NCBI GenBank assembly: GCA_021234155.1
Contig: JAJEKV010000161.1
Location: 1 to 64,000, forward strand
Length of the DNA stretch: 64,000 nucleotides
Direction of reading: 5' to 3'
Source of the DNA: Isoetes taiwanensis
Lineage: Eukaryota; Streptophyta; Lycopodiopsida; Isoetales; Isoetaceae
Below, piece after piece: positions 7,109 to 64,000 of the stretch. The notes beneath the pieces were generated by a model. That model had not been told where the DNA came from. It saw nothing but the letters and a program-made list of their open reading frames with translations, and made no database searches. Position 1 is the stretch's first letter. Each line of letters opens with the position of its first letter. Made by a program: the position numbers and the translations under genes.

Positions 7109-7112
7109 GCAT

Positions 7113-7633: not shown

Positions 7634-8028
7634 AGTCGCGGATGATAGTATCAAGATACTCCCACATGCGGCTGCCCACATATGCACATGTTCTCATTTT
7701 ACATTTGCTAATGAATACTATTACCATTATTTTTCCTTGTCTTTCAAACACCTCGACACTTGACATCGGCATATCTTCATTCAGACCACCCCTTTGTCAG
7801 CACCCTATTAGGTGGCATATTTCCGTCGAGAAAATTCATAGGCAGAATATAGTGTAGACCAACATCATAATACTTACCTACTCTTTTTATACAGGCCCAC
7901 CTAGGTGAATAACATTGGCTGTGCTGGTGGTCAAAGTTGGAGCAGTTGATGAGGACTGTTGTTCTGTAGTTAGCAAACTTCCGATCACCGGTAACCTTAT
8001 TAATGGCAGTCATTGGATTATGCCTTGG

Positions 8029-22639: not shown

Positions 22640-22680
22640 AACGTGTGCGGCGATCTTAGGGCATTAAAATAAATGATGTG
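22640..22680 (-). other. Helitron-like end, hairpin destroyed
   Basis: Counterpart of the end at 36430-36460. ACTAGAAACGTGTG is kept, but the hairpin that follows is changed to GCGGCGATCTTAGGGC. The changed bases are in CCG context. Confidence 0.4.
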
Positions 22681-23542: not shown

Positions 23543-23555
23543 AGATGGATAGATG

Positions 23556-23617
<62 letters not shown>

Positions 23618-23618
23618 A
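23543..23618. repeat. (GATA)n microsatellite, ~19 units
   Basis: Nearly pure GATA. The partner at 37338-37386 is about 28 bases shorter. On the minus strand it is the TATC tail at the 3' end of the LINE-like unit. Confidence 0.95.
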
Positions 23619-23639
23619 TTTTAACGTCCACGGGAACCC

Positions 23640-36429: not shown

Positions 36430-36460
36430 CTAGAAACGTGTGCCCGGCGATGCCGGGCAT
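36430..36460 (-). mobile_element. Helitron-like 3' end
   Basis: On the minus strand a perfect 8-bp stem (TGCCCGGC/GCCGGGCA, 3-base loop, 36441-36459) is followed seven bases later by CTAG (36433-36430) and then T. Helitron 3' ends have such a hairpin shortly before CTRR and insert between A and T. The element body would lie to the right on this map. No 5' TC end and no Rep/helicase gene was found, so this may be a short non-autonomous element. Confidence 0.5.
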
Positions 36461-37337
36461 TAGTCGTGATGTGTGGAATGGATAAATACAATTGACTGCA
36501 TAAGTGAATGGAATGTAGTGAAGACTCTAGGAACATTTGAAAGGCATTTGAAGGTTGGAATTTGAAGTCCTTTTATCCTGCCAAAGACATAAATTTTTTT
36601 GCATGCCTTTGAAATCTATCAATCAAATTTAAACACCCAATGGAGTATATCGTATTTTTTGATGCTTGTGAAATGAAGTTGATGGTAGTGGTAACGTGGT
36701 AGAAACTTGGTCATTTGAATCTTGTAATTGTGTGAAACTTGAGTTGAAAGATGTGTGGAATATTGTGTATGCTTATATGCATATTAGTGAAAGATATGGT
36801 CGAGGGTGGTGGAAGATGTAGGTCTATTGCAATGCACCTATAATAAAATATTTATTGTCCGTTGCTTAGTTTCTAGGTTATTTACTTCTTGATTGTGGTC
36901 TTGTTTGAATGCCTAGACTTAAAAATGGATTGAAAGTGGATAATGGTCTTGTAAAACTTAAAAATTAAATCATGTCAATTCCAACCGAAGAATGAAAGCC
37001 ATCATATAAAATGATTTTCTCAAATAGGATCAATGATAACATCCATATTTGTAGCTAACTTTTATGAACTCATGAATATGTAGATAAACGACCTCCTCCA
37101 TGTGCTCTATTGGACATGTGCCTAGTTAACTACTTAACATTCACATTTACACACCAAATGTATACATGAATTTAGAGCCTAGAAAATATGTGATGGGCAA
37201 GTGTTGTTTGATATAATTATTGTTACCATGTTCTATGTGCGTAAGAACTTTGTACGACACAATCACAAAATAGGATCTTATTAGACATGGGATATAGTTG
37301 TTTATATATAAATGCCTCTCCTGAAATTGCTATTAAG

Positions 37338-37348
37338 ATGGATAGATG

Positions 37349-37386
<38 letters not shown>
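37338..37386. repeat. (GATA)n microsatellite, ~12 units
   Basis: Shorter partner of 23543-23618. On the minus strand it forms the TATC tail following the ORF1 unit. Confidence 0.95.
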
Positions 37387-37718
37387 ATTTTAACGTCCAC
37401 GGGAACCCAAGCGGGTTATGGGACGAGTACAAACCAAGGGCAAGAAGCCCAAGCAGAACAAAACACAAAAAAAAACAATAAAATTTACAACAAAGAAGAA
37501 AATGCTGAACATGGGTGCTCGGGGCACTAACAATATCCCAACCAAAGGTTCTGAGGCCACTGCTCGCGGATTATCGCTGTGCCGCCCCTGTATACTGCCC
37601 ATTTTTTGTGCAACCTAGCTTCGCGAACCTTACATAGCTCCTCTCGGCGCCTGGTCAACTGTGTGGGTGAAAGGTCCTCCTGGACGGAGAGCTTAGAGCC
37701 CCTGAGGTGACTACCATG

Positions 37719-38501
37719 CTAAAGGACATACAGCCTACTCTGCATAGTGATGAACTGCACAAGCATATAACGAGGTCGATCTGGCCTCTGAGCACCAACT
37801 CGCTGGGCCATAGCGATACTAGGCTTCTGGATGTGCATAGTCTCTGTGAAGAAGTGTTCCACCTGTTCAATGTCTGAACAAGAAGCTGCCTCCGGTAGGC
37901 CTACTATCCGCAAATTCATACGCCGCTCAGGCTGGTGCAATGGTGGTTCAGGCATAGAGCATGGAACGTGTTTTCCCGACTGTGAATATTCTGGTGCAAG
38001 CATGGGTGCATCAGCCACTGTGGCCTTTGTGCATGCCTCTGTGTCAAAATCTGTTTGGGTCATGCCGTCTATAGCATCTGCACCCAATGTACGATCTGTC
38101 TGAGTGATGACCTCTATACATGGAGCCTCGGTCTGTCCAATGGAATCTACTTGCCGTGGGACTACGGTAGGAGCTGGAGGAGTTTCCTGAGCTAGTGTAA
38201 GCTCTCTGAACAGGGTCTTGAACAGATGCAGGACTTGAATCCAACTATCCACGGGCAGGAATACAGAGGTATCTGTAACAGTGATGCTGGAGGAAGTTTC
38301 CTCAATTGCCGCTTGAAGGTCAAGCTCTAGACATGAGGTATCTACATGTTCTGGACCGGCAGAAGTGTTTGCTAAAACAGAAGAGGGCGCAACAGGGCTT
38401 GGAGGCTGCATAACGAGATCTGGCTCGGGTATTGGTGGAGGTGGCGGGCTGGGCTTATCCTTGGCCGCTTTTCTGGCCATATCCCTGGCTTTCCGGGTCA
38501 T
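37719..38501 (-). CDS. LINE-type ORF1 protein with RRM-like domain
   Basis: A 260-codon open frame. The first 55 residues are basic then proline-rich (KPSPPPPPIPEPD); the middle is acidic and Ser/Thr-rich. Residues about 190-245 read RRMNLRIVGLPEAASCSDIE, then VEHFF, IAMAQRVGAQR and PRYMLVQF, the pattern of the RNA-binding RRM domain in L1-like ORF1 proteins (NLRI-G-PE, AxRxG, RPR-ILV-F). After the stop the same kind of protein continues in-frame (LRGSKLSVQEDLSPTQLTRR), matching the ORF1 C-terminal domain, so the stop at 37719 may be a single change. ORF1 proteins coat LINE RNA. No ORF2 (endonuclease/RT) is present between the ORF and the TATC tail. The start Met is the first after a stop. 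The damaged copy is at 23640-24760. Confidence 0.72.
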   Translation of the reverse strand: MTRKARDMARKAAKDKPSPPPPPIPEPDLVMQPPSPVAPSSVLANTSAGPEHVDTSCLELDLQAAIEETSSSITVTDTSVFLPVDSWIQVLHLFKTLFRELTLAQETPPAPTVVPRQVDSIGQTEAPCIEVITQTDRTLGADAIDGMTQTDFDTEACTKATVADAPMLAPEYSQSGKHVPCSMPEPPLHQPERRMNLRIVGLPEAASCSDIEQVEHFFTETMHIQKPSIAMAQRVGAQRPDRPRYMLVQFITMQSRLYVL

Positions 38502-39626
38502 TGCTTAGACAGCAGATGCTAGATGCTGATGCCAGATGCTGGACAACAAGAAAATCAAAGCAACTGCAAAGCAGGCACTGTGTCTACTATGGCTGTACTA
38601 TGGTGGACAATAAGAAAACTGAAACAATTGTGAAGCACGTGGCTGTGTCTACTATGGCGGCACTATGCTGGGCAATATGAAAACCAAAGCAAAGGGAACT
38701 GATCTGGACAGCTAAGCAAACCTGGAGCCTCTGGCCATTTAGAATTGTGACAAAGAGATTTTTCACCTGAAGAAAGTTGGTGCTGGCTGGTCGAAACTTG
38801 TTATGGCTGGTCAAAACTTCTCTAGTGCCCCTGGAAGCCTAAAGCTCACTTCCACCTCTGGAATCAGATTAGAACTCTGGCACGAAATCGATGAGGAAGC
38901 CCAGGTCATCTACTGGAAGACATGTCGGGCTGCAGCGATGGCTACTGTGGCTGCGGAAATTGGGTCTTACTGTGGCAGATGGGTGAAGCCGGGCGCTATG
39001 GTGTGGTTGCTGTAAAACCTCAACCCCTTCATTTTCTTATCTACAGTGGGAACTCTTGCTGAAGATCGTGGCAGAAGATGAGGTGCTGAGGCAGTGCTGC
39101 GCTGGTTCTTGATGCGTGAGAGGCCGGCACCTACAGAGCTGGGTGGTTGCACCAACAAAGATCCGACAAGTGCAAGTGCAGGTAAGTTAGATGCATGCTT
39201 GTTGGCTTGAGCGGCTGCAGCTGGCCGAATATATGCTGGCCGAGCTAAGAAGTAGAAGAAAATAAGACCTGGCAAAAGAAATTTTGCTGGCTGAGTATCG
39301 TGATGCCTGGACGAAATCGTTGCTGGCAAAATCGGTGCTGGGGCTGGCTTTGCCGGATAGATCTTTGGCTGCTTGCTCGATCCTGCTAGATGTTGCTTGG
39401 TGCTGCCTCCGGAGCCTGAGTTTACATGTGCCTAGGCGCTGAGCGCTCAAAGGAAACTCATTGACCTTGAAATACCATGACAACAGCTTTGTCACAACAA
39501 TAGATGTAGGTGCGAAACATGTTCTAAGTTCAATTCTGGGAAAAAAAACATCGAAGCTTCTTTTGTTGTCTTTCGTAATTTGGAAAAATCTTGGGATTTG
39601 AATGAAAGGAGTGTAAACACGAAGGA

Positions 39627-40584
39627 GACATTAAAAACTTCAAATAATCAATGCAAACTGCAACAAAACTCCTACATACGCACAAATGTTGAGTATTCCA
39701 ATAGAAATGTCAAATAAGCAATGCATGTAAGTAAAGACTTTTGATGCCCACATTGTCCTCATCTTCCTTCCCCGGGGGGTTCACCTTTATCACATACGTA
39801 TATGCCACCGGCGAGATTAAAGTGAGAAAAAACACCCCTATTTACGTACGTAAGAGTGTTGAAAAACACCCCTTCCTTAGAAAAAATACACTAGAATGTC
39901 AGTAAGAGGGGTATTCAAACCCCTAGTATACGTACGGAAACATCAGAAAAAAAACCCCTTTCTTGCACTCTCTTGGTTTATTACGGGTCTTCTGTGTGAA
40001 TCCCCCTTGCTTCCTTCCGGCAATCTCATTTTCTTCAATGTTATTGTGCCTAGGTACATGCACAAAGTTTCAGCGTGTGGCCCAATCAAAATTGAAATGT
40101 ATTTGGATCATACCTGATGCATATGAAATGCAAAGCACACTCATAGCAGAAGTAAAAGTTTACTGGCTTGTTTTTGCAAAATTGTGCCAATGCTCCTTAT
40201 CTAACCAATTGACAAATGCTATAAGATCATCGATGTTCTTCGAATATGCTGCACTTGTCTTGCAAGAGGCTGAATAGATTCACCTTGAGTTTCGTGTTCA
40301 GCTTTGGTCATAAAAATAACTACCCAGAGTAACAGTCATCAACATAGCAAACCACAAAGTCATTCTCCATCATAAAGAGATACTTGAGTTTGAAATGAAC
40401 ACTATAAATGATGCACCGATCTAGACCAGCTTGCGCAATTCTCAAAGAGGCAACCCAGATGAGCAAAGGATTGCCCCCCTAAGGGCAACCCAAAAATGCT
40501 TAACGTACCGTTGGCTTAAAAGATTCCTTTTTAAACCCCTTATTCTATTAGGTTCCCACGATCACTTTTTCAATCATTTTTTTG
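39627..40584. other. No gene recognised
   Basis: Contains near-repeats of AAACACCCCT with TACGTACG (39835-39950). On the minus strand near 40350 a short frame reads NDFVVCYVDDC, like an RT box, but nothing around it supports a retroelement. Confidence 0.4.
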
Positions 40585-41292
40585 GAAGGGAAAAAGGAAA
40601 AATCTTGCAGCCGTTGGATTGTCTAATGGTTGTGGTGAAGTTTTTTACTGCCGTCCAGCTGTTAGTCCGCAATTGGAGACAGAATTGGAAGTTTTAGTGA
40701 TCGAGAATCCTGCGGAATTTGTTGAACATAGGCTTCGTGCGGCGTGGTTGAGCGCAGGTGCAGATCGGCCCAAGGAGATTAAGCCACTGTCATCAGTTTA
40801 CAGTGCTATAGATTGGGTGAACAGATTTAGTCGAGATTTCATAAAGCAACTTTGGTTTAGCTAGTTGTTGAACCATTTTTTCAAACCCCGATTCAGAGCA
40901 GTGCTAGAGTTTGGGATTCTTATCCTGTCATCTAATTTGGCCATCGCTTCTCTCTGATTGATTCTTATGGATTGAAAATAGGTTGAGCAAGAACACTGTA
41001 AGAATATCTTGGACTTTTCTGTTTTTGAGACAAGGTTCACAGCCAGGCGCGAGATTTTACAGTCACTGGGACGTAACGAGACGATTATTTGCTTGCTCGT
41101 TCGGATCCTGGGGCTTGCTTCCGATCTGCAGCTCCAGTCGGAACCTGATCTTGCATCGCAGGGTGCAGTGCTGTGAACAGGAGTGTTTGGGGCTTTTCTT
41201 TGCCACCTTTAAGATTTGTTTTTTATCGGACGGCCTGAAACTTTTGAAATAACAAAACAAAACCCATTAGAGTTCAATACCCATTAGAGTAA
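40585..41292 (+). repeat. 0.7-kb segment, inverted copy of one in the tandem units
   Basis: Reverse complement of 50990-51712 and its counterparts in the next two units. It carries the plus-strand frame 40619-40864 (81 codons: CGEVFYCRPAVSPQLETELE, FVEHRLRAAWLSAGADRP, VYSAIDWVNRFSRDF), unassigned but shared, and extended here by about 22 bases (GTCGAGATTTCATAAAGCAA) that the tandem copies lack. This copy therefore looks closer to the ancestral form. The left edge coincides with the MITE edge in the tandem units. Confidence 0.85.
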
Positions 41293-47533: not shown

Positions 47534-47599
47534 GGAAATTTCCGCCGGAAAAATTCTCGGCGGCGCCGCCAGCCTCGAATTTTATCCGGCGGAATTTCC
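47534..47599. repeat. 66-bp palindrome centred on GGCGCC
   Basis: The arms GGAAATTTCCGCCGGA and TCCGGCGGAATTTCC are joined through AAAATTC/GAATTTT and the core GGCGGCGCCGCC (47559-47570). It sits exactly at the left edge of the first tandem unit. Confidence 0.88.
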
Positions 47600-47958
47600 T
47601 CCCCATGAATTTTATCTAATACGTTTGCTTGAAATTACTGTAAAAATATGTCATTTTTATAAGGCGGAATATCGTCCAGGTTTCGCGGAGCGGCGCCGCT
47701 AACCTCCTAACCAGCATCCTCTGCTTTTGCTGCTCTAGTGTTTACCTTGTTTCGATTCTGGCCTCCCACAGTGGGCTCCTTCTTCTCTGATCTAGATCCG
47801 GCCTCATTGCCTGACTGACTCTTGCCGTTTGTTTTCTTCTTGGCGCAGGTCGTGCAGCAAGCCAGAAACGGATTACCCTTTGTTTATCTTTGCCCATCGC
47901 TGTTTAGGAGCTAAGTCAAGCAATTTTTTCCTTCTATCTTCTCTGCCATAGCCGTTGA

Positions 47959-48204
47959 AACGGATTATCCTCGGTTTATTTTTCCCCATCGCCGTATCAG
48001 AAGAAGATTACAGCTCGTTCTGTTTCAGAAGAAGATTGCAGCACTGTGTTAACTGCTTTGGCTCCATGTCTTGGATATCTTGACAACTCTGATAAATCCC
48101 CTTCTAAGGACTGCTGCTCCTCGTTATCTAATGTTAGCAAACAAGCCCGGCTTGCCTCTGTTCCGGCTTTTCCAGCGGAGGAGGCAGTGCTGCTGCCGGA
48201 TTAA
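47959..48204 (+). pseudogene. Lipid-transfer-protein-like exon (unit A)
   Basis: The frame to the stop at 48202-48204 reads SEEDCSTVLTALAPCLGYLD, then SPSKDCCSSLSNV. This is the first half of the eight-cysteine pattern of plant lipid transfer / 2S-albumin family proteins (C-x9-C-x..-CC), closest in style to GPI-anchored LTPs that bind lipids outside the cell. The following C-x-C and last two cysteines are absent: the text changes to SKQARLASVPAFP and stops. The upstream in-frame text is bounded by a stop at 47956, so no signal peptide is attached. It looks like one exon fragment carried in the unit. In units B (about 53394-53652) and C (about 58893-59138) the same frame is broken at CAG/CTG sites. 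Confidence 0.6.
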
Positions 48205-48466
48205 ATCTTAATGCAACTAGAGAGACTTTGTTGCCTAAGGTCTGTAAACTCAATCTTGATGCTAGCCAGTGTAAAAGTAAGTCTTTTTTTTGGAATGCTT
48301 GTTCTAATTCATACGTTTTTTATCTGATATAAGGAAGATTGAAGGAAGAAAGGGCACGCCATAGCCGTTGAACAGAAGCCTCTCCCAAAAACTCTGCCGG
48401 AAATATTTTTAACGTACGTAATTTCAGCAAATGTTTTTTACGTTTTGATAATTTCCGGCCGTCGAC

Positions 48467-48534
48467 ATTCCGGCCGGAAAGTTCCTCGGCGGCGCCGCCA
48501 GCCTCGGAACTTTACCGGCCGGAATCTCTCCGGC
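48467..48534. repeat. GC-rich palindrome, second copy of the GGCGGCGCCGCC core
   Basis: CCGGCCGGAAAGTTCC, core CTCGGCGGCGCCGCCAGCCT, then the mirrored arm GGAACTTTACCGGCCGG. In units B (53930-54010) and C (59410-59510) the core is longer and rearranged. Confidence 0.88.
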
Positions 48535-48832
48535 CGGAAATTTATCTAATACATATCTAAACTATATAATTGCTATAGGCAAGATGCCGTGAGAATATAC
48601 GTTTATATTCTTTCTTATTTGAGTGACACGTCTTTAAGTTCGTCCGGGGAAAAAAATCAAGAAAAGCATAAAATAAAGAATTACACGGGCAACAAGCGTC
48701 CAGCCCTACCTGCTTTCCGGGAAGATGGCTTCTAATCCTTAGTTTAGAGGATGGATACACGAATTGTTGGATCGATACAGAGATAAAGGCTGCCGTGTTG
48801 AGTCGAGTGCAACTGGATTATTATTATTGCAG

Positions 48833-49616
48833 AGATCTCTGCTTGCAGAGGTGATAGAGCTGAAAAAGACAAGCAGCCGAGATTGCAGGATTGTCAAAAT
48901 AGACAGAGAATCCGGAGAGGGAAACATTGTTTTAATAGCAGTAATTAAGAATGTAATTCGCCTTGCTAAAAGTACAGAGCTTTTTGGGGATTATGTTGCC
49001 AGACAAATTGGCCTTGCAAAAGATACATTAGAAGCCCAGCATTTGGCAGATGTTGCAAATGAATATCTTTGCGGGATAAGAGCAGGGCAGACGATAACCT
49101 GGAGAAGATTCGAACATTCCTTTGCTGACAGAATCTGGCCAGAAGGCAACCAGAAATTCTGGTAAGTTGTATATGCAACCAAAACTTTTTAAAATGTTTC
49201 AGAGACGTTAGTTAGTCTAAAGGATTTTAACCCTGGTTTTTTTTTATTTTAGGAACAGTGATGTAATATGGAAATACTATACAGCAGGGGAGGCACTTGG
49301 CAGAGGCTTGTGGAACTGCTTTCTGATAGTCTTGGGCTGGAAAGGAGCACATTTACTCAACATTTTGAGAAATCTTCAGCTAGTGTTAGATGGAACTATT
49401 ATCGACCATGTCCAAAACCATCTATGCTCTGGGCCTTCACCCACATTCTGGTCTCAATGCCATGACTATATTGTATCGAGACAATGTAGGAGGCTTGCAG
49501 ATTTTGCAAAGATGGCAAGTGGATTGGTGTCAAGCCTAGGCCTGACTCCCTCATCATTAATGTGGGGGGCAATCATGTCAATGTGCATATATTCTCAGCA
49601 TTTGCTTGACCAGTAA
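48833..49616 (+). CDS. Unassigned two-exon ORF (unit A)
   Basis: Exon 1 opens after the acceptor TTATTATTGCAG (48832) or earlier at the Met of 48764, and runs to 49161: VIELKKTSSRDCRIVKIDRE, IVLIAVIKNVIRLAKSTELF, EAQHLADVANEYLCGIRAGQ. The donor GTAAGT at 49162 and the acceptor TTTTAG at 49252 remove a 91-base intron and join TG|G in frame. Exon 2 reads SDVIWKYYTAGEALGRGLWN, FAKMASGLVSSLGLTPSSLM and reaches a stop at 49614, which overlaps a second good donor (GTAAGC at 49613). Altogether about 260 residues. I recognise no family. Units B and C carry the same DNA with the frame broken. Confidence 0.5.
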
Positions 49617-50403
49617 GCTCCTCTTGTGTTTGCTCATGTTTCTAACATGGATATATCATCTTTCAGGCTCATTCTTATGCCAGTTTGAGCATTTGCAGCT
49701 TGGGATTCTTTTGAAGATGGGAGGACCTGGACCAATTCGTATTAATATGGCATTGTTGCCCCTGTAGGATATTGGGCATCAGCAAACTCGTGTGGAATGA
49801 GGTAAATTATCTGAATATCAAAATGTGTTGTAGGTCTGATATTCGCTGATTAAGGTCATGTCCTTTACATGCTCGCAGATTCTCAATTTTTGTTCCTACT
49901 TTTTGTCTATGAGTTTAAAAATATTACTTGAGCATGCTATGATTGCCAATCACAATCAAGTGAAGGATCTGCTCAAAGGCCAAAGATTTATTTCTGCAAA
50001 TGATGGGAGAAACCATGGCTTTGCACTAACTTTTGGTTGTGGTATTTGCAGGGAGCTTGAATTGATATGGCACTGCAACTGTTTCAACAATGCACTCAGG
50101 CTTCGTATTTTTGGAACTAGCAGAGTAAGGTTTAGATCTGTCTTGCTATTTTTAGAGTTGAGAGTGTCTCCTGCTTAATGTCTTCAAGCAGGTTTCTGCC
50201 TCTTTTGCAATATGCTAGCCGAGCCTGCAATAAGGCTTCTGGCCTCTTCCGCAATATGCGAGCCGAGTTTGCATTAGGGGCCCCACATCATAGGTTATCT
50301 GCTTGCTTGAAGAGCCTTTTGCCTCCATATCAAGTACCTGGTTTATTTGAAGTTGTTGTTGATGTTGAAGTAGCTTTCTCAACGTGTAATTTCATATTTG
50401 CAG

Positions 50404-50709
50404 TTGACAAAAATTCCCTGGATTCTGAAACATGGCATGCATGTGCTGGACCACTTGTGTGCCTTCCTCAAATGGGTGACCATGTTGTCTATTTTCCTCA
50501 AGTGCACATTGAGCAGGTACTGTGTCGATGTGATGTTATTGTTGTTTCTGTATTGTGCAATTGTTTTTGAGAATTCCTTCAAATTAAGTGTAAGTAATCG
50601 GCTTAATCCAATATAAAGCACCTTATTTCTTCATTTTGGCATGCCTAATGGTATACATCTTTTACAGGCATATCAAGAAACAGGTGAAGTTTATGCACAA
50701 ACTGAGTAA
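50404..50709 (+). pseudogene. Auxin response factor N-terminal exon fragment (unit A)
   Basis: After the acceptor TTTGCAG, 50404-50516 encodes [20 protein letters not shown], then [14 protein letters not shown], ending at a GT donor. This is the conserved start of ARF proteins ([10 protein letters not shown]...V.YFPQGH.EQ; here V replaces the usual G), part of the dimerisation region that precedes the B3 DNA-binding domain. After TTTTACAG a second piece from 50668 reads AYQETGEVYAQTE and stops. The B3, middle and PB1 domains are missing. ARFs bind auxin response elements; this fragment cannot. It looks captured with its introns. Counterparts: unit B 55897-56007, unit C 61383-61495. Confidence 0.75.
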
Positions 50710-50989
50710 TCCACTGCATAACATTGTTAACTAGATCAGCATCAAGGCTTAATAATGCCTGGAATTCATGAGCTCTTTGTTGAAGGTCTGTGGAGAGTGT
50801 GAAGTAGATGACTCGTCAATGAAAGATTGACACTGCAGAACTCGATTATGTCCTCAAAACACAACATTCAGTACCTAGTAGGTTTGAGTTGCTTGAACGG
50901 GCATAAATTATAAAAAATATGTCAAATGACATATTTACTTTTGGAATGAGTCTGACTCTTCTAGCAGCAGATTCCACTCTGATGGGTAT
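50710..50989. other. Continuation of the ARF-side sequence, no further exon found
   Basis: No frame continues ARF homology; the next shared block is the inverted segment. Confidence 0.4.
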
Positions 50990-51712
50990 TGAACTCTAAT
51001 AATGGGTATTGAACTCTAATGGGTTTTGTTTTTTTTATTTCAAAAGTTTCAGGCCGTCCGATAAAAAACAAATCTGAAAGGTTCGATACATGAGGGCCTT
51101 GCCACCGTACACGTGGCAAAGAAAAGCCACTCCTGTTCACAGCACTGCACCCTGCGATGCAAGATCAGGTTCCGACTGGAGCTGCAGATCGGAAGCAAGC
51201 CCCAGGATCCGAACGAGCAAGCAAATAATCGTCTCCTTACGTCCCAGTGACTGTAAAATCTCGCGCCTGGCTGTGAACCTTGTCTCAAAAACAGAAAAGT
51301 CCAAGATATTCTTACAGTGTTACTTGCTCAACCTATTTTCAATCCATAAGAATCAATCAGAGAGAATCGATGGCCAAATTAGATGACAGGATAAGAATCC
51401 CAAACTCTAGCACTGCTCTGAATCGGGGTTTGAAAAAATGGTTCAACAACTAGCTAAACCAAAGTTATCTGTTCACCCAATCTATAGCACTGTAAACTGA
51501 TGACAGTGGCTTAATCTCCTTGGGCCGATCTGCACCTGCGCTCAACCACGCCGCACGAAGCCTGTGTTCAACAAATTCCGCAGGATTCTCGATCACTAAA
51601 ACTTCCAATTCTGTCTCCAATTGTGGACTAACAGCTGGACGGCAGTAAAAAACTTCACCACAACCATTAGACAATCCAACGGCTGCAAGATTTTTCCTTT
51701 TTCCCTTCCAAA
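50990..51712 (-). repeat. Inverted copy of the 40.6-41.3 kb segment (unit A)
   Basis: Carries the minus frame 51674-51465 (69 codons) identical in most positions to 40619-40825, then a ~22-base deletion at the end of that frame. Counterparts at about 56480-57212 and 61965-62698 are damaged at CAG/CTG. Confidence 0.88.
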
Positions 51713-51718
51713 GAAATG

Positions 51719-51869
51719 ATTTTAAAACCTTTGTTTGGGTGTGTTAGTGTTATGGCAGATCTTGTGTTTTTGAGCTGGGAAGAAAATAAAAATTCCAAAA
51801 ACACCATGCATAACATATGGACCATTAAGAATGGAGTGCCATAACACACCCAAACAAAGGTTTTAAAAT
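51719..51869. mobile_element. MITE, 151 bp, 28-bp perfect inverted ends (unit A)
   Basis: ATTTTAAAACCTTTGTTTGG plus GTGTGTTA at 51719-51746 is mirrored exactly at 51842-51869. No coding capacity. The same element is present in units B and C with almost no change. Confidence 0.8.
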
Positions 51870-52163
51870 TTTTTTTTTAGATTTGCTGATTTTTTAATTT
51901 GCTTAGAATTTTGAGTAATTGTAGGCATTTTTCTTAGGGACTTACACATTATGTGCGAATAATATGATATATGAAAGAAGGTGTTGGAGGTTGGAATTTT
52001 ATTTAAAAATGACAAAGCATAAGGAAGAACTTAAAATGCAATTTACTCATGTAAAAGGCCATGTGCTTTTTAATATTTCGTAACTTGGAAGAACATCATA
52101 TGAAAACACAGAAAACAATGCTAAATAGGAAACGAAACAAAGCACAATGTTTCAGTTTCCACC
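51870..52163. other. AT-rich spacer, 3' flank of the minus-strand ORF
   Basis: No frame. Conserved in all three units. Confidence 0.4.
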
Positions 52164-52930
52164 CTATGCACCCATGGTCTGTGGGTGCTCTCGAGCAAGC
52201 ATGGTGAATCCTTTAAGATTTCGTACCAAAAGAGCACGAACACGGTTCATCTCAGCCCTAAACACGCGTCGCTCACGTGTCGAGACTTTGACTCGTTCAT
52301 CGTCCATAGCGGTGAAGCATTCTTCAAGAACATCATAAACATTTTTCAATGATATTTGCATCTCTAAGATGTTTCTTCCAGCATGCTTTGCCATCTCCAA
52401 TGCATCAAAAAATGGGCCGTTCTCAAGGTCTAGAACATTTTCCAATGCGTTATCAATTTCCTTTTGCTCATCAATGGAGCCATCAGAATCTACATCTATG
52501 AAGGGGTAAACCAGTGATTCACTAGCTTCATCAATATCCCTGTTCGCACCTACACATGAGCAAGTATTGTGTCAATAAGATGTGATGAAATAATAAAAAA
52601 GACAAAACACTACATATTCAAAAGAACGTACTATGCCTAAGAAATAGCCAAAGAATGGTCTTTATAATTTAAGGGATGTAATCTTGGAATCGGGATCCTC
52701 GGGTGGGTAAAAGGCCGGGTCTCGGTTCATACTCGCCCCTCCACGTGCAAGGTTCTGGAAGCTACGGTCATAACCATCATCAAGAGGAACACCGCCGCTT
52801 TTCGGGACTAGAGAGGGAGTGCATGAGGCATCAAGCTCATCTAACTTTTTCGGCATCGTTCTCATCATCCCAAACCCTTTCGCCTTCTTTTCCCCCCACT
52901 CTACATTATGGGAACAACGTCACTAGGTAA
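52164..52930 (-). pseudogene. Unassigned two-exon minus-strand ORF (unit A)
   Basis: Exon 2 (52549-52164, after the acceptor CTCATGTGTAG) is open throughout: DIDEASESLVYPFIDVDSDG, LDLENGPFFDALEMAKHAGR, ISLKNVYDVLEECFTAMDDE, RVFRAEMNRVRALLVRNLKG, and it ends in a stop. It is helical and charged, with no domain I know. Exon 1 lies about 52660-52930 but is damaged here; the best copy is in unit C. Conservation in three units and clean splice signals suggest a real gene or a transposon accessory ORF. Confidence 0.5.
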
Positions 52931-53393
52931 ACCATAGATGGTGGCGTACATCTTTGATGGAGGCACGAGTGGGTGTCGTCGTGGCGCCGCCATTTTCGGT
53001 GGCGCCGCCGCCAATTTTATCCCGTGAATTTCCTCCCCATGAATTTTATCTAATACGTTTGCTTGAAATTACCGTAAAAATATGTCATTTTTATAAGGCG
53101 GAATATCGTCCGAGTTTTTTCATGGAGCGGCGCCGCTAACCTCCTAACCGGCATCCTCTGCTTTTCTTTGCTCTAGTGTTTACCTTGTTTCGATTCGGCC
53201 TCCCCGGTGGGCTCCTTCTTTCTCGATCTAGATCCGGCCTCATTGCCTCGACCGACTCTTGCCGTTTGTTTTTTCTTCTTGGCGCAGTCGTGCGGCAAGC
53301 CGTAAACGGATTACCCTTTGTTTATCTTTGCCCATCATTTGTTTAGGAGCTAAGTCAAGCAATTTTTTCCTTCTATCTTCTCTCGCCATAGCC

Positions 53394-53652
53394 GTTGAAA
53401 CGGATTATCCTCGGTTTATTTTTCCCCATCGCCAGGTATCGAAGAAGATTACGGCTCGTTCGTTTTGGAGGAAGAAGATTGCAAAGACTTTGTGTTAATC
53501 GCTTTGGCTCCATGTCTTGGATATCTTGACAACTCTCGATAAATCCCCTTCTAAGGGCCGCTGCTCCTCGTTATCTAATGTTAGCAAACAAGCCCGGCTT
53601 GCCTCTCGTTCGGCTTTTCCGGAGGAGGAGGCGATCTTCTTCTGCCGGATTA
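53394..53652 (+). pseudogene. LTP-like exon, unit B copy
   Basis: Matches 47959-48204, but GATTGCAGCACTGTG is replaced by GATTGCAAAGACTTTGTG and AAGGACTGCTGC by AAGGGCCGCTGC. The frame and one cysteine are lost. Confidence 0.6.
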
Positions 53653-54319
53653 AATCTTAATGCAACTAGAGAGACTTTGTTGCCTAAGGTCCGTAAACTC
53701 AATCTTGATGCTAGCCGGTGTAAAAGTAAGTCTTTTTTTTGGAATGCTTGTTCTAATTCATACGTTTTTATCGATATAAGGAAGATTGAAGGAAGAAAGG
53801 GCACGCCATAGCCGTTGAGCGAAGCCTCTCCCAAAAACTTCTGCGGAAATATTTTTAACGTCACGTAATTTCAGCAAATGTTTTTACGTTTTGATAATTT
53901 CCGGCCGTCGACATTCGGGAGGAAAGTTTCTGGCGCCGCCATTCGGGCGGCGCTTTTCGCTGACTCCGCCGTTCGTCGCCGCCTCGGGGCGGGCCGGAAT
54001 GAACTTTACCGGCGAATCTCTCCGCCGGAAATTTATCTAATACATATCTAAACTATATAATTGCTATAGGCAAGATGCCGTGAGAATATACGTTTATATT
54101 CTTTCTTATTTGAGTGACACGTCTTTAAGTTCGTCCGGGAAAAAAATCAAGAAAAGCATAAAATAAAGAATTACACGGGCAACAAGCGCCCAGCCCTACC
54201 TTTTCGGGAAGATGGCTTCTAATCCTTAGTTTAGAGGATGGATACACGAATTGTTGGATCGATCTGAGATAAAGGCTGCCGTGTTGAGTCGAAAAGTGCA
54301 ACTGGATTATTATTATTGC

Positions 54320-55100
54320 GAGATCTACGCTTGCGAGAGGTGATAGAGCTGAAAAAGACAAGCGTAGCCGAGATTGCGGGATTGTCAAAATAGACAGAGA
54401 ATCCGGAGAGGGAAACATTGTTTTAATAGCAAGTAATTAAGAATGTAATTCGCCTTGCTAAAAAGTCTGAGCTTTTTGGGGATTATGTTGCCGGACAAAT
54501 TGGCCTTGCAAAAGATACATTAGAAGCCCAAACATTTGGCGGATGTTGCAAATGAATATCTTTTGCGGGATAAGAGCGGGCGTGACGATAACCCGGAGAA
54601 GATTCGAACATTCCTTTCTTGACAGAATCCGCCGTAAGGCAAACCAGAAATTCTGGTAAGTTGTATATGCAACCAAAACTTTTAAAATGTTTGAGAGGCG
54701 TTAGTTAGTCTAAAGGATTTTAACCGGTTTTTTTTTTTATTTTAGGAACAGTGATGTAATATGGAAATACTATCTGGCAGGGGAGGCACTGGGCAGAGGC
54801 TTGTGGGCGCTTTACGATAGTCTTGGCTGGAAAGGAGCACATTTACTCAACATTTTGAGAAATCTTCAGCTAGTGTTAGATGGAACTATTATCGACCATG
54901 TCCAAAACCATCTATGCTCGGGCCTTCACCCACATTCGGTCTCAATGCCATGACTATATTGTATCGAGACAATGTAGGAGGCTTGCTTGATTTTGCAAAG
55001 ATGGCAAGTGGATTGGTGTCAAGCCTAGGCCCGACTCCCTCATCATTAATGTGGGGGCAATCATGTCAATGTGCATATATTCTCAAAGCATTTGCTTGAC
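54320..55100 (+). pseudogene. Two-exon ORF, unit B copy
   Basis: DNA matches 48833-49616. The acceptor reads ATTGCG instead of ATTGCAG, and several one- to three-base changes at CAG/CTG sites break the frame. Confidence 0.6.
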
Positions 55101-55896
55101 CCAAGAAGCTCCTCTTGTGTTTGCTCATGTTTCTAACATGGATATATCATCTTTCGGGCTCATTCTTATGCGGTTTGAGCATTTGCAGCTTGGGATTCTT
55201 TTGAAGATGGGAGGACCTGGACCAATTCAGTATTAATATGGCATTGTTGCCCCTGTAGGATATTGGGCATCAGCAAACTCGTGTGGAATGAGGTAAATTA
55301 TCTGAATATCAAAATGTGTTGTAGGTCCGATATTCACTGATTAAGGTCATGTCCTTTACATGCTCATGATTCTCAATTTTTGTTCCTACTTTTTGTCTAT
55401 GAGTTTAAAAATATTACTTGAGCATGCTATGATTGCCAATCACAATCAAGTGAAGGATCCGCTCAAAGGCCAAAGATTTATTTCTCGCAAATGATGGGAG
55501 AAACCATGGCTTTGCACTAACTTTTGGTTGTGGTATTTGCGGGGAGCTTGAATTGATATGGCATCGCAACTGTTTCAACAATGCACTCGGGCTTCAGTAT
55601 TTTTGGAACTAGCGAGTAAGGTTTAGATCTGTCTTGCTATTTTTAGAGTTGAGAGTGTCTCCCGCTTAATGTCTTCAAGCGGGTTTACGCCTCTTTTGCA
55701 ATATGCTAGCCGAGCACACGCAATAAGGCTTTCGGCCTCTTCCGCAATATGCGAGCCGAGTTTGCATTAGGGGCCCCACATCATAGGTTATCCGCTTGCT
55801 TGAAGAGCCTTTTGCCTCCATATCAAGTACCTGGTTTATTTGAAGTTGTTGTTGATGTTGAAGTAGCTTTCTCAACGTGTAATTTCATATTTGCGG

Positions 55897-56007
55897 TTGA
55901 CAAAATTCCCGGATTCTCAAACATGGCATGCATGTCTTGGACCACTTGTGTGCCTTCCTCAAATGGGTGACCATGTTGTCTATTTTCCTCAAGTGCACAT
56001 TGAGCAG
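55897..56007 (+). pseudogene. ARF exon fragment, unit B copy
   Basis: The acceptor is changed (TTTGCGG), and CCCTGGATTCTGAAAC reads CCCGGATTCTCAAAC. ACTTGTGTGCCTTCCTCAAA and following text are unchanged. Confidence 0.65.
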
Positions 56008-57215
56008 TGTAATCGTGGTCGATGTGATGTTATTGTTGTTTTCGTATTGTGCAATTGTTTTTGAGAATTCCTTCAAATTAAGTGTAAGTAATCGGCTTAA
56101 TCCAATATAAAGCACCTTATTTCTTCATTTTGGCATGCCTAATGGTATACATCTTTTACTGGGCATATCAAGAAACAGTGAAGTTTATGCACAAACCGAG
56201 TAATCCATCTTTGCATAACATTGTTAACTAGATCAGCATCAAGGCTTAATAATGCCGGAATTCATGAGCTCTTTGTTGAAGGTCCGTGGAGAGTGTGAAG
56301 TAGATGACTCGTCAATGAAAGATTGACACTGCTGAGAACTCGATTATGTCCTCAAAACACAACATTCATTACCTAGTAGGTTTGAGTTGCTTGAACGGGC
56401 ATAAATTATAAAAAATATGTCAAATGACATATTTACTTTTGGAATGAGTCGACTCTTCTAGCGGCCAGATTCCACTCGATGGGTATTGAACTCTAATAAT
56501 GGGTATTGAACTCTAATGGGTTTTTTTTTTTTATTTCAAAAGTTTGGGCCGTCCGATAAAAACAAATCTGAAAGGTTCGATACATGAGGGCCTTGCCACC
56601 GCACGTGGCAAAGAAAAGCCACTCATTCACAAAGATCGCACCCTGCGATGCAAGATCAGGTTCCGACTGGAGAGCCGCAGATCGGAAGCAAGCCCCGAGG
56701 ATCCGAACGAGCAAGCAAATAATCGTCTCCTTACGCCCCGGTGGATGTAAAATCTCGCTACCGGCCGTGAACCTTGTCTCAAAAAGAAAAGTCCAAGATA
56801 TTCTTTACGGTGTTACTTGCTCAACCTATTTTCAATCCATAAGAATCAATCGAGAGAGAATCGATGGCCAAATTAGATGACGGGATAAGAATCCCAAACT
56901 CTAGCACCTTTCTCGAATCGGGGTTTGAAAAAATGGTTCAACAACTAGCTAAACCAAAGTTATCTGTTCACCCAATCTATAGCAATGTAAACCGATGACG
57001 GTGGCTTAATCTCCTTGGGGCGATCTGCACGCACTCGCGCTCAACCACGCCAAGACGAAGCCTGTGTTCAACAAATTCGCAGGATTCTCGATCACTAAAA
57101 CTTCCAATTACGTCTCCAATTGTGGACTAACACCTGGACGGGTAAAAAACTTCACCACAACCATTAGACAATCCAACGGCTGCAAGATTTTTCCTTTTTC
57201 CCTTCCAAAGAAATG

Positions 57216-57366
57216 ATTTTAAAACCTTTGTTTGGGTGTGTTAGTGTTATGGCAGATCTTGTGTTTTTGAGTTGGGAAGAAAATAAAAATTCCAAAAACA
57301 CCATGCATAACATATGGACCATTAAGAATGGAGTGCCATAACACACCCAAACAAAGGTTTTAAAAT
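57216..57366. mobile_element. MITE, 151 bp (unit B)
   Basis: Same ends and length as 51719-51869. CAG/CTG intact here. A one-base change (GAGTTGG against GAGCTGG) is visible. Confidence 0.8.
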
Positions 57367-57668
57367 TTTTTTTTTAGATTTGCTGATTTTTTAATTTGCT
57401 TAGAATTTTGAGTAATTGTAGGCATTTTTCTTAGGGACTTACACATTATGTGCGAATAATATGATATATGAAAGAAGGTGTTGGAGGTTGGAATTTTATT
57501 TAAAAATGACAAAGCATAAGGAAGAACTTAAAATGCAATTTACTCATGTAAAAGGCCATGTGCTTTTTAATATTTCGTAACTTGGAAGAACATCATATGA
57601 AAACACAGAAAACAATGCTAAATAGGAAACGAAACAAAGCACAATGTTCGGGGTTTCCACCCTATGCA

Positions 57669-58545
57669 CCCATGGTGCGTGGGTGCTCTCGAAAGCAAGC
57701 ATGGTGAATCCTTTAAGATTTCGTACCAAAAGAGCACGAACACGGTTCATCTCAGCCCTAAACACGCGTCGCTCACGTGTCGAGACTTTGACTCGTTCAT
57801 CGTCCATAGCGGTGAAGCATTCTTCAAGAACATCATAAACATTTTTCAATGATATTTGCATCTCTAAGATGTTTCTTCCAGCATGCTTTGCCATCTCCAA
57901 TGCATCAAAAAATGGGCCGTTCTCAAGGTCTAGAACATTTTCCAATGCGTTATCAATTTCCTTTTGCTCATCAATGGAGCCATCAGAATCTACATCTATG
58001 AAGGGGGTAAACAGTGATTCACTAGCTTCATCAATATCCCTGTTCGCACCTACACATGAGCAAGTATTGTGTCAATAAGATGTGATGAAATAATAAAAAA
58101 AGACAAAACACTACATATTCAAAAGAACGTACTATGCCTAAGAAATAGCCAAAGAATGGTCTTTATAATTTAAGGGGATGTAATCTTGGAATCAGGATCC
58201 TCGAGGTGGGTAAAGGGCGGGGGTCTCGGTTCATACTCGGCCCTCCTCCCGTGCAAGGTTCCCGGAAGCTCTCGTGTCATAACCATCATCAAGAGGAACA
58301 CCGCCGCTTCGGGGACTAGAGAGGGGAGTGCATGAGGCATCAAGCTCATCTAACTTTCTGGCATCGTTCTCATCATCCCAAACCCTTCGCCTTCTTTTCC
58401 CCACTCTACGTATGGGAACAACGTCACTAGGTAAACCATAGATGACGCAGCGTACATCTTTGATGGAGGCCTGAGTGGGTGTCTCGTGCGCCGCCTCGGC
58501 TGGCGGCGCCGCCTCGAATTTTATCCGGCGGAATTTCCTCCCCAT
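57669..58545 (-). pseudogene. Minus-strand two-exon ORF, unit B copy
   Basis: Exon 2 is intact up to the last codons, where CGAAAGCAAG replaces CGAGCAAG and the frame runs past the normal stop to 57544. In exon 1 the frame 58545-58231 begins with MGRKFRRIKF, encoded by the palindromic junction sequence of unit C, then joins the conserved VIYGLPSDVVPIRRVGKRRR, VWDDENDARKLDELDAS. The unit junction thus supplies an N-terminus. Confidence 0.5.
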
Positions 58546-58892
58546 GAATTTTATCTAATACGTTTGCTTGAAATTACTGTAAAAATATGTCATTTTATAA
58601 GGCGGAATATCGTCCGTGTTTCGCGGGCGGGCGCCGCTAACCTCCTAACCGGCATCCTCTGCTTTTCTTTGCTCTAGTGTTTACCTTGTTTCGATTCGGC
58701 CTCCCACGGTGGGCTCCTTCTTCTCGATCTAGATCCGCCTCATTGCCGGACCGACTCTTGCCGTTTGTTTTCTTCTTGGCGCAGGTCGTGCGGCAAGTTT
58801 AAACGGATTACCCTTTGTTTATCTTTGCCCATTTGTTTAGGAGCTAAGTCAAGCAATTTTTTCCTTCTATCTTCTCTCGCCATAGCCGTTGA

Positions 58893-59138
58893 AACGGATT
58901 ATCCTCGGTTTATTTTTCCCCATCGCCGTGATCGAAGAAGATTACAGCTCGTTCTGTTTGAGAAGAAGATTGCAAAGATCGTGTTAAGCGCTTTGGCTCC
59001 ATGTCTTGGATATCTTGACAACTCGATAAATCCCCTTCTAAGGACTGCTTTGCTCCTCGTTATCTAATGTTAGCAAACAAGCCCGGCTTGCCTCATTCCG
59101 GCTTTTCCAGCGGAGGAGGCGATCTTCGCTGCCGGATT
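58893..59138 (+). pseudogene. LTP-like exon, unit C copy
   Basis: GATTGCAAAGATCGTG stands for GATTGCAGCACTGTG; ACTCGATAAA stands for ACTCTGATAAA. The frame is broken. Confidence 0.6.
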
Positions 59139-59812
59139 AAATCTTAATGCAACTAGAGAGACTTTGTTGCCTAAGGTCCGTAAACTCAATCTTGATGCTA
59201 GCCGGTGTAAAAGTAAGTCTTTTTTTGGAATGCTTGTTCTAATTCATACGTTTTTATCCGATATAAGGAAGATTGAAGGAAGAAAGGGCACGCCATAGCC
59301 GTTGAGCGAAGCCTCTCCCAAAAACTCTGCCGGAAATATTTTTAACGTCACGTAATTTCAGCAAATGTTTTTTACGTTTTGATAATTTCCGGCCGTCGAC
59401 ATTCCGGCGGGAAAGTTCCCGGCCGGCGCCGCCATTCGGCGGCACTTTCGCGGCTCCGCCGCCGCTCGTCGGCCGCCTGGGTGGCGGCCGCCGGAACTTT
59501 ACCGCCGGAATCTCCGCCGGAAATTTATCTAATACATATCTAAACTATATAATTGCTATAGGCAAGATGCCGTGAGAATATACGTTTATATTCTTTCTTA
59601 TTTGAGTGACACGTCTTTAAGTTCGTCCGGGAAAAAAATCAAGAAAAGCATAAAATAAAGAATTACACGGGCAACAAGCGCCCAGCCCTACACGCTTTCG
59701 GGAAGATGGCTTCTAATCCTTAGTTTAGAGGATGGATACACGAATTGTTGGATCGATAGAGATAAAGGCTGCCGTGTTGAGTCGAAAGTGCAACCGGATT
59801 ATTATTATTATT

Positions 59813-60600
59813 AGAGATCTCGCTTGCGAGAGGTGATAGAGCTGAAAAAAGACAAGCGGTACCGAGATTGCGGGATTGTCAAAATAGACAGAGAATCCGG
59901 AGAGGGAAACATTGTTTTAATAGCAGTAATTAAGAATGTAATTCGCCTTGCTAAAAGTACTGAGAGCTTTTGGGGATTATGTTGCCGGACAAATTGGCCT
60001 TGCAAAAGATACATTAGAAGCCCAAAGATTTGGCGGATGTTGCAAATGAATATCTTTTTGCGGGATAAGAGCAGGCGACGATAACCCGGAGAAGATTGAA
60101 CATTCCTTTGTCGTGAGAATCCGGCGGAAGGCAACCGAAATTACGGTAAGTTGTATATGCAACCAAAACTTTTTAAAATGTTTTGTAGACGTTAGTTAGT
60201 CTAAAGGATTTTAACCCCTTTTTTTTTTATTTTAGGAACAGTGATGTAATATGGAAATACTATATGGCCGGGGGAGGCACTTGGCGAGAGGCTTGTGGAA
60301 CTGCTTTCGATAGTCTTGGGCTGGAAAGGAGCACATTTACTCAACATTTTGAGAAATCTTCAGCTAGTGTTAGATGGAACTATTATCGACCATGTCCAAA
60401 ACCATCTATGCTCGGGCCTTCACCCACATTCGGTCTCAATGCCATGACTATATTGTATCGAGACAATGTAGGAGGCTTGCAGATTTTGCAAAGATGGCAA
60501 GTGGATTGGTGTCAAGCCTAGGCCCGACTCCCTCATCATTAATGTGGGGGCAATCATGTCAATGTGCATATATTCTCAGCATTTGCTTGACCAAGAAGCT
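59813..60600 (+). pseudogene. Two-exon ORF, unit C copy
   Basis: Counterpart of 48833-49616 with the frame broken at several CAG/CTG sites and at the end of exon 1 (GAAATTACGGTAAG for GAAATTCTGGTAAG). Confidence 0.6.
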
Positions 60601-61382
60601 CCTCTTGTGTTTGCTCATGTTTCTAACATGGATATATCATCTTTCGGGCTCATTCTTATGCCGGTTTGAGCATTTGCAGCTTGGGATTCTTTTGAAGATG
60701 GGAGGACTGGACCAATTCGTATTAATATGGCATTGTTGCCCCCTGTAGGATATTGGGCATCAGCAAACTCGTGTGGAATGAGGTAAATTATCCTGAATAT
60801 CAAAATGTGTTGTAGGTCCGATATTCATTTGATTAAGGTCATGTCCTTTACATGCTCATGATTCTCAATTTTTGTTCCTACTTTTTGTCTATGAGTTTAA
60901 AAATATTACTTGAGCATGCTATGATTGCCAATCACAATCAAGTGAAGGATCCGCTCAAAGGCCAAAGATTTATTTCGCGCAAATGATGGGAGAAACCATG
61001 GCTTTGCACTAACTTTTGGTTGTGGTATTTGCAGGAGCTTGAATTGATATGGCATCGCAACTGTTTCAACAATGCACTCGGGCTTCAGTATTTTTGGAAC
61101 TAGCGAGTAAGGTTTAGATCTGTCTTGCTATTTTTAGAGTTGAGAGTGTCTCCCGCTTAATGTCTTCAAGCGGGTTTTCGCCTCTTTGCAATATGCTAGC
61201 CGAGCCCGCAATAAGGCTTCGCCTCTTCCGCAATATGCGAGCCGAGTTTGCATTAGGGGCCCCACATCATAGGTTATCCGCTTGCTTGAAGAGCCTTTTG
61301 CCTCCATATCAAGTACCTGGTTTATTTGAAGTTGTTGTTGATGTTGAAGTAGCTTTCTCAACGTGTAATTTCATATTTGCAG

Positions 61383-61495
61383 TTGACAAAAATTCCCCGG
61401 ATTTCAAACATGGCATGCATGTCTTTGGACCACTTGTGTGCCTTCCTCAAATGGGGTGACCATGTTGTCTATTTTCCTCAAGTGCACATTGAGCG
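61383..61495 (+). pseudogene. ARF exon fragment, unit C copy
   Basis: The acceptor TTTGCAG is kept. GGATTCTGAAAC reads GGATTTCAAAC and TGTGCTGGACC reads TGTCTTTGGACC, so WHACAG is lost. Confidence 0.65.
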
Positions 61496-62701
61496 TGTAA
61501 TCGTGGTCGATGTGATGTTATTGTTGTTTCAGATTGTGCAATTGTTTTTGAGAATTCCTTCAAATTAAGTGTAAGTAATCGGCTTAATCCAATATAAAGC
61601 ACCTTATTTCTTCATTTTGGCATGCCTAATGGTATACATCTTTTACGGGCATATCAAGAAACAGTGAAGTTTATGCACAAACCGAGTAATCCATCGCATA
61701 ACATTGTTAACTAGATCAGCATCAAGGCTTAATAATGCCGGAATTCATGAGCTCTTTGTTGAAGGTCCGTGGAGAGTGTGAAGTAGATGACTCGTCAATG
61801 AAAGATTGACACTGCGAGAACTTCGATTATGTCCTCAAAACACAACATTCAATTACCTAGTAGGTTTGAGTTGCTTGAACGGGCATAAATTATAAAAAAT
61901 ATGTCAAATGACATATTTACTTTTGGAATGAGTCGACTCTTCTAGCAGCAGATTCCACTGATGGGTATTGAACTCTAATAATGGGTATTGAACTCTAATG
62001 GGTTTTGTTTTTTTATTTCAAAAGTTTCAGCCGTCCGATAAAAAACAAATCTGAAAGGTTCGATACATGAGGGCCTTGCCACCGCATTACACGTGGCAAA
62101 GAAAAGCCACTCTGTTTCACAAAGATCGCACCCTGCGATGCAAGATCGGGTTCCGACCGAGAGCGCAGATCGGAAGCAAGCCCCGTGATCCGAACGAGCA
62201 AGCAAATAATCGTCTCCTTACGCCCCGGTGGATCAAAATCTCGCTACCGGCTGTGAACCTTGTCTCAAAAAACAGAAAAGTCCAAGATATTCTTACAAAG
62301 TGTTACTTGCTCAACCTATTTTCAATCCATAAGAATCAATCAGAGAGAATCGATGGCCAAATTAGATGACGGGATAAGAATCCCAAACTCTAGTAATCGC
62401 CTGAATCGGGGTTTGAAAAAATGGTTCAACAACTAGCTAAACCAAAGTTATCTGTTCACCCAATCTATAGCAATCAGAACCGATGATGGCGGTGGCTTAA
62501 TCTCCTTGGGCGATCCGCACTGCGCTCAACCACGCCAAGACGAAGCCTGTGTTCAACAAATTCCGCAGATTCTCGATCACTAAAACTTCCAATTTGTCTC
62601 CAATTGTGGACTAACAATTTGGACGGCAAAAAAAACTTCACCACAACCATTAGACAATCCAACGGCCGCAAGATTTTTCCTTTTTCCCTTCCAAAGAAAT
62701 G

Positions 62702-62853
62702 ATTTTAAAACCTTTGTTTGGGTGTGTTAGTGTTATGGCAGATCTTGTGTTTTTGAGTTTGGGAAGAAAATAAAAATTCCAAAAACACCATGCATAACAT
62801 ATGGACCATTAAGAATGGAGTGCCATAACACACCCAAACAAAGGTTTTAAAAT
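62702..62853. mobile_element. MITE, 152 bp (unit C)
   Basis: Same element as in units A and B. Confidence 0.8.
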
Positions 62854-63144
62854 TTTTTTTAGATTTGCTGATTTTTAATTTGCTTAGAATTTTGAGTAAT
62901 TGTAGGCATTTTTCTTAGGGACTTACACATTATGTGCGAATAATATGATATATGAAAGAAGGTGTTGGAGGTTGGAATTTTATTTAAAAATGACAAAGCA
63001 TAAGGAAGAACTTAAAATGCAATTTACTCATGTAAAAGGCCATGTGCTTTTTAATATTTCGTAACTTGGAAGAACATCATATGAAAACACAGAAAACAAT
63101 GCTAAATAGGAAACGAAACAAAGCACAATGTTTCAGTTTCCACC

Positions 63145-63975
63145 CTATGCACCCATGGTCTGTGGGTGCTCTCGAGCAAGCATGGTGAATCCTTTAAGAT
63201 TTCGTACCAAAAGAGCACGAACACGGTTCATCTCAGCCCTAAACACGCGTCGCTCACGTGTCGAGACTTTGACTCGTTCATCGTCCATAGCGGTGAAGCA
63301 TTCTTCAAGAACATCATAAACATTTTTCAATGATATTTGCATCTCTAAGATGTTTCTTCCAGCATGCTTTGCCATCTCCAATGCATCAAAAAATGGGCCG
63401 TTCTCAAGGTCTAGAACATTTTCCAATGCGTTATCAATTTCCTTTTGCTCATCAATGGAGCCATCAGAATCTACATCTATGAAGGGGTAAACAGGATTCA
63501 CTAGCTTCATCAATATCCCTGTTCGCACCTACACATGAGCAAGTATTGTGTCAATAAGATGTGATGAAATAATAAAAAAAGACAAAACACTACATATTCA
63601 AAAGAACGTACTATGCCTAAGAAATAGCCAAAGAATGGTCTTTATAATTTAAGGGGATGTAATCTTGGAATCAGGATCCTCAGGTGGGTAAAAGGCCGGG
63701 GTCTCTGGTTCATACTCAGCGTCCTCCACGTGCAAGGTTCCTGGAAGCTCTGTGTCATAACCATCATCAAGAGGAACACTGCTGCTTTCAGGACTAGAGA
63801 GGGGAGTGCATGAGGCATCAAGCTCATCTAACTTTCTGGCATCGTTCTCATCATCCCAAACCCTTCGCCTTCTTTTCCCCACTCTACGTATGGGAACAAC
63901 GTCACTAGGTAAACCATAGATGACGCTTGGCGCACACATCTTTGATGGAGGCCCCGAGTGGGGTGTGAGGGTCAA
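63145..63975 (-). CDS. Minus-strand two-exon ORF, best exon 1 (unit C)
   Basis: Exon 1 (63975-63649) is open: PSVIYGLPSDVVPIRRVGKR, VWDDENDARKLDELDASCTP, VPLDDGYDTELPGTLHVEDA, ending FYPPEDPDSKITSP. Basic KRRRR near residue 35 could be a nuclear signal. Exon 2 (63538-63145) matches unit A except near 63490, where AACAGGATTC replaces AACCAGTGATTC and shifts the first codons. The intron lies between about 63640 and 63540 and ends CATGTGTAG. Together about 230 residues, acidic and helical. I know no family. CAG/CTG are intact across this region, so this is the most readable copy. Confidence 0.5.
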
Positions 63976-64000
63976 GCGCCATGCTGCTTCTACTCGTTCT

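Follow-up and report, generated by a model that had tools for sequence, protein, structure and literature searches.

Why should three neighbouring copies of a repeat agree almost base for base, and yet differ at the trinucleotides CAG and CTG? The question is raised by a stretch of 64,000 nucleotides from Isoetes taiwanensis (NCBI GenBank assembly GCA_021234155.1, contig JAJEKV010000161.1, positions 1 to 64,000 of the forward strand; hereafter the window), at the end of which three ~5.5 kb units, named A, B and C, form a tandem array; they were delimited by self-comparison and a three-way alignment. A sequence-only reading of the window had claimed that CAG and CTG are selectively altered between these units. 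Our analysis indicates, with a probability of about 0.9, that the differences between A, B and C are sequencing errors of an uncorrected long-read consensus, most likely Oxford Nanopore, and not mutations.

Differences between the tandem units and their triplet context

All three units lie on the forward strand, A at 47553-52991, B at 52992-58491 and C at 58492-63966 (the extent of homology seen). The strings quoted in the sequence-only reading were recovered exactly: CCACAGTGGG at 47766 in A stands against CCCCGGTGGG at 53202 in B and CCACGGTGGG at 58704 in C, GATTCTGGCC at 47754 in A against GATTCGGCC at 53192 (B) and 58693 (C), and GTGCAGCAAG at 47852 in A against GTGCGGCAAG at 53290 (B) and 58788 (C). 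Its hand count of CAG plus CTG in the block aligned to A 47701-48279 was also reproduced (30 in A, 5 in B, 7 in C). Over alignment columns 0-5200, with A as the reference, 122 of the 171 CAG/CTG of A were altered in B and 118 in C, as compared with 0 and 3 of 200 ATG/CAT, and the claimed selectivity stands; CTA/TAG was altered at 0/109 sites in both units and CAA/TTG at 6/245 (B) and 3/245 (C).

As triplets adjoining CAG/CTG seem to be altered through overlap with it, other triplets were also counted only if they started at least 9 bases from any CAG/CTG of A. This distance-filtered tally pooled B and C and covered columns 0-970 and 1080-4400; columns from 4400 on were excluded, as were columns 970-1080, where A has a 53-base gap with a GC-rich flank. 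Here, 235/322 CAG/CTG and 24/76 CCG/CGG were altered, vs. 95/3948 for all remaining triplets together (Fisher p 3e-230 and 2e-19, respectively, for pooled sites that are not independent). Among these remaining classes, CGC/GCG reached 7/30 and CGA/TCG 8/60 (counts that include CCGC and CCGA without separating them), GTA/TAC 7/70 and ACG/CGT 3/68 (4.4%), while CHH triplets were altered at 0 to 5.7%. The altered context is CHG: all three CHG triplets are affected, CWG more than CCG. The earlier claim was thus right for CAG/CTG, but too narrow in its restriction to these two, since CCG is altered as well. The pattern of CAG/CTG and CCG matches the context of plant CHG methylation; in plants, CWG methylation exceeds CCG methylation.

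Little else separates the units. In columns below 4400 that lie more than 10 columns from CAG/CTG, A and B are separated by 7 substitutions and 15 indels (1554 columns), A and C by 6 and 18 (1557 columns), and B and C by 12 and 17 (1554 columns); the differences that remain outside plus or minus 6 columns are chiefly homopolymer lengths and CCGG-rich stretches. Without this exclusion, 249 substitutions and 191 gap columns separate A from B. We also noted a GC-rich stretch of ~53 bases that is present in B and C and absent from A near 48.5 kb (A 48480-48510), which may be a real indel, a collapse or an error.

The copy with the older text

Part of the unit has an older copy in inverted orientation, used as an outgroup, which lies on the reverse strand at 40572-41286 and matches A 51000-51721 with 14 mismatches in 743 columns (~2% apart in substitutions). 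It agrees with A at 32/34 CAG/CTG sites; of the 32 held in common, 23 are missing in B and 22 in C. Two CAG/CTG of A are absent from this copy, and C has two unique ones. Near CAG/CTG, the odd one out in an alignment column was never A alone, as compared with 21 columns for B alone and 35 for C alone, while elsewhere the numbers were 1, 2 and 3 for A, B and C. Because the 40.6 kb copy agrees with A, and B and C are the odd ones near CAG/CTG, A holds the older text in the region covered by the outgroup.

According to the site patterns along the alignment, the clean copy changes within the unit. It is A up to ~51.8 kb, but C from ~63.6 kb: the tail of A (~52610-52991) has lost CAG/CTG in the same way as B, and at the end of C (63590-64000, forward strand) CAG/CTG are kept in C and not in A or B. 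A 135-codon open frame is shared by the units (A 52164-52571, minus strand, with counterparts at 57544-58071 in B and 63145-63528 in C), for which a protein search gave no match. Over this frame (A 51800-52571), 6/10 CAG/CTG positions are intact in A, B and C, vs. 31/176 in the rest (p = 0.005). Past this putative exon there are 13 CAG/CTG positions, present in C at 11, in B at 4 and in A at 1. An inverted repeat at 51720-51870, seen by eye and resembling a small hairpin element, lies next to the point where A ceases to be clean.

Products of the alteration

In columns below 4400, A has 162 CAG/CTG, 120 of which are changed in B and 117 in C (237 together). The changed sites of B comprise 25 single A>G or T>C substitutions at the middle base, 31 multi-base changes of equal length, 59 net length changes and 5 single substitutions of other kinds, including one C>T; those of C comprise 27, 29, 60 and 1, respectively. 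Single substitutions are thus A>G or T>C at the middle base in 25/30 (B) and 27/28 (C) cases, an A/G and T/C confusion that leans to C or G. As the sequence-only reading had it, the changes are A-to-G, T-to-C and small indels and not C-to-T: a single C>T occurs once at the 237 changed sites and a single G>A never, these counts being of single substitutions, since multi-base changes were not resolved into individual steps. An adenine-deaminase-like mutator acting on CAG would give A>G substitutions without length change and does not fit, as 59/120 (B) and 60/117 (C) changed sites differ in length.

When 168 sites were scored together with the 3 columns to either side of each (columns below 5000), 118 were altered in both B and C, 17 in B only, 12 in C only and 21 in neither. 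The text of the sites altered in both is identical in 39 cases and different in 79. The flanking bases bear on the product in the same way in the array and in a duplicate pair of the same window that is unrelated to it (agreement 0.078 vs. 0.030 when shuffled, with 0/2000 shuffles as high; clean-anchor sites only, 234 from the array and 66 from the pair, of which 50 changed pair sites entered the statistic). The outcome is, in other words, set by the local sequence (signal k-mer).

The second duplicate pair

The copies of this pair lie at 21054-25878 and 34844-39626, both on the forward strand. The first is CAG/CTG-poor and the second CAG/CTG-rich in part, mainly at 37504-39458; of 154 CAG/CTG in the second copy, the first shows 112 in altered form. 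The lowest classes were AAA/TTT (9/266) and ATG/CAT (13/221), and without the distance filter 42/74 CCG/CGG differ. Errors concentrated in one methylation context, as found in the tandem units, are less cleanly seen here.

Within the pair, 22823-23423 and 36616-37216 are identical in 599/600 columns and hold zero CAG/CTG, while the copies differ more on both sides; this block looks naturally CAG/CTG-poor. The CAG/CTG-rich copy contains a 261-codon open frame on the minus strand (37719-38504) that has no Pfam match and that we take to be reminiscent of the first frame of a long interspersed nuclear element (LINE); no frame of this length occurs in the other copy among the listed open frames.

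Origin of the differences

The explanation that we favour would proceed in three steps. In the plant, CHG sites of these repeats would carry 5-methylcytosine. Native DNA would then have been read on a nanopore, the platform we infer behind the observed pattern, with a base-calling model that handles methylated CpG and not methylated CHG, so that CAG, CTG and, less often, CCG would be called as CGG, CCG, CG, TCG, CTTTG, etc., depending on the neighbouring bases. Of the several near-identical copies, later correction, most likely with short reads, would probably have mended a single one at any given place, since short reads align preferentially to whichever copy already contains the fewest errors. 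The repaired text would comprise A to ~51.8 kb and C from ~63.6 kb; the end of A, the whole of B and most of C would have stayed unrepaired. Short-read correction of one copy is probably what explains the clean copy; it is favoured because the role of clean copy passes from A to C within the unit, and because the copies at 40.6 and 51 kb, ~2% apart and so distinguishable, are both clean (32/34 sites). The preference of the sequence-only reading for methylation-linked base-calling error over deamination or a targeted mutator agrees with the context, the products, the flank dependence and the low divergence elsewhere, and is supported with this one added step, which is required to explain why one copy is clean.

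Parallels can be drawn with passages of published work. In a Klebsiella genome called with default models, ~70% of the consensus errors fell in the Dcm motif CCAGG/CCTGG (PMC6591954; Wick et al. 2019). Like our case, that one has 5-methylcytosine in a C-W-G setting where default models fail and errors persist in the consensus; it differs in being a bacterial five-base motif with ~0.4% error, whereas here any CHG triplet is concerned and ~70% of CAG/CTG are altered. In nanopore-sequenced bacterial genomes, calls wavering between A and G or between T and C were described, with C or G favoured in 84%, and 2357 ambiguous positions were reduced to 44 after polymerase chain reaction (PCR) (PMC11610573; Lohde et al. 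2024); the A vs. G or T vs. C miscalls leaning to C or G are shared with our array, the removal by PCR being a result of that study. In plants, DNA methylation has been named the likely cause of lower nanopore accuracy, which species-specific models raise (PMC9749173; Ferguson et al. 2022). Methylation as the likely cause of poor base calling is common to that case and ours, but "CHG" occurs 0 times in its text and the passages available contain no table of error by context. A further paper (PMC9716091) was set aside, its passages being unrelated to miscalling. In a literature search of titles and abstracts, exactly this pattern was not found described in a plant assembly, which does not prove that no such description exists.

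Several points weigh against nanopore miscalling at methylated CHG. Methylation, platform and the correction step are all deduced from the text of the assembly. Homopolymer length, usually the second source of nanopore error, shows no clear shortening in B and C, where runs are in part longer and in part shorter. The ambiguity reported by Lohde et al. occurs in the motif RACG/CGTY, as substitutions only, and with no known matching methylase according to the passages of that paper, and a plant nanopore assembly was 99.986% accurate before short-read correction (PMC7419231, likewise from passages), so such errors are not universal. In the second pair, 33/75 CAG/CTG are altered in the reverse direction, ACG/CGT differ at 23/54 sites without the distance filter, and outside CAG/CTG plus or minus 8 columns the three parts of the pair differ in 40/447, 45/1411 and 25/547 columns (inside: 107/453, 22/239 and 351/1703); because of these reverse alterations, ACG/CGT differences and divergence away from CAG/CTG, the pair is noisier and does not provide a clean replicate.

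Other explanations keep the base-calling error and account differently for the clean copy. If that copy lacked CHG methylation in the plant, instead of having been corrected, the error would mark a methylation boundary in the array, an option that is unlikely although it deserves consideration: errors are rarer over the shared open frame (6/10 vs. 31/176 sites intact), as would fit an exon without CHG methylation, but the switch of the clean copy from A to C along the unit, the near identity of clean and altered copies in the rest of their sequence and the cleanness of the more diverged 40.6 kb copy speak against it, none of them decisively. Somewhat more doubtful is the stronger form in which miscall density is a readout of CHG methylation and the change from A to B a real epigenetic boundary in a young array, with A unmethylated and B and C methylated. 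B and C might also be, wholly or partly, false duplications, i.e., uncorrected long-read text beside one real corrected unit. Both the near identity of the three units away from CAG/CTG and the fact that the clean text totals one unit (A to 51.8 kb, C from 63.6 kb) would fit, although a real array would look alike; as the text of B and C differs at 79/118 shared sites, and both carry the 53-base stretch absent from A, we regard this as improbable.

A biological mutator is very unlikely. The strong CHG context and the older state that the outgroup shows in A are what a real CHG-directed mutation process in B and C would have in its favour, but it would have to strike ~70% of sites per copy with outcomes that differ at 79/118 shared sites, half of them length changes, that are set by flanking bases and accompanied by little other divergence. 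Still less credible as the cause of the separation between the copies is C>T deamination at methylated CHG, or a process like repeat-induced point mutation (RIP). With one single C>T and not a single G>A at the 237 changed sites, it is contradicted for A vs. B and C; it may account for regions where CAG/CTG is scarce in the two copies alike, e.g., 22823-23423.

Taken as miscalls at methylated CHG, the differences are a warning about the data, since near-identical duplicates in such an assembly would look several percent diverged. Estimated ages of duplications would be distorted, as would pseudogene calls, reading frames and CAG/CTG codons, and false CGG/CCG sites would be created, while the signature itself (loss of CAG/CTG, gain of CGG/CCG and a repeat with one clean copy) can serve to flag uncorrected stretches. 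If the errors do turn out to be a methylation readout, public plant assemblies that were left uncorrected could reveal methylation states, with no need for raw signal.

Other features of the window

Open frames of a Ty3/gypsy-type retroelement occupy 2578-7102 on the minus strand. The frame at 4907-6085 contains a reverse transcriptase and a zinc knuckle above the Pfam cut-off and was the sole one to reach the cut-offs among the 10 frames searched (82 listed). A protein search with the retroelement frame gave 1488 matches, and the named ones among the 120 listed mostly belonged to green plants or to the alga Closterium, with none from a close species. The window was also split into CAG/CTG-rich and -poor segments by a two-state model of G after CW. 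It was dropped as an error map because the segment called poor at 4458-7836 holds an unbroken 392-codon retroelement frame, and because 22823-23423 is free of CAG/CTG and yet nearly identical in both copies. CpG enrichment, tried as a second mark, sorted 800-base bins only roughly.

Among the remaining repeats, the pair 1988-2498 / 7117-7633 has 9 sites without direction, which are too few, and two further short pairs hold zero CAG/CTG. A search against Rfam returned nothing at gathering scores, and the tandem-unit frames among the 10 searched had no Pfam match. One of the frames in A (50136-50570), also without a Pfam match, contains WHACAGPLV, which presumably recalls auxin response factors. 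The open frame of C at 63649-63999 has a counterpart in B at 58231-58554, the second half of which is diverged.

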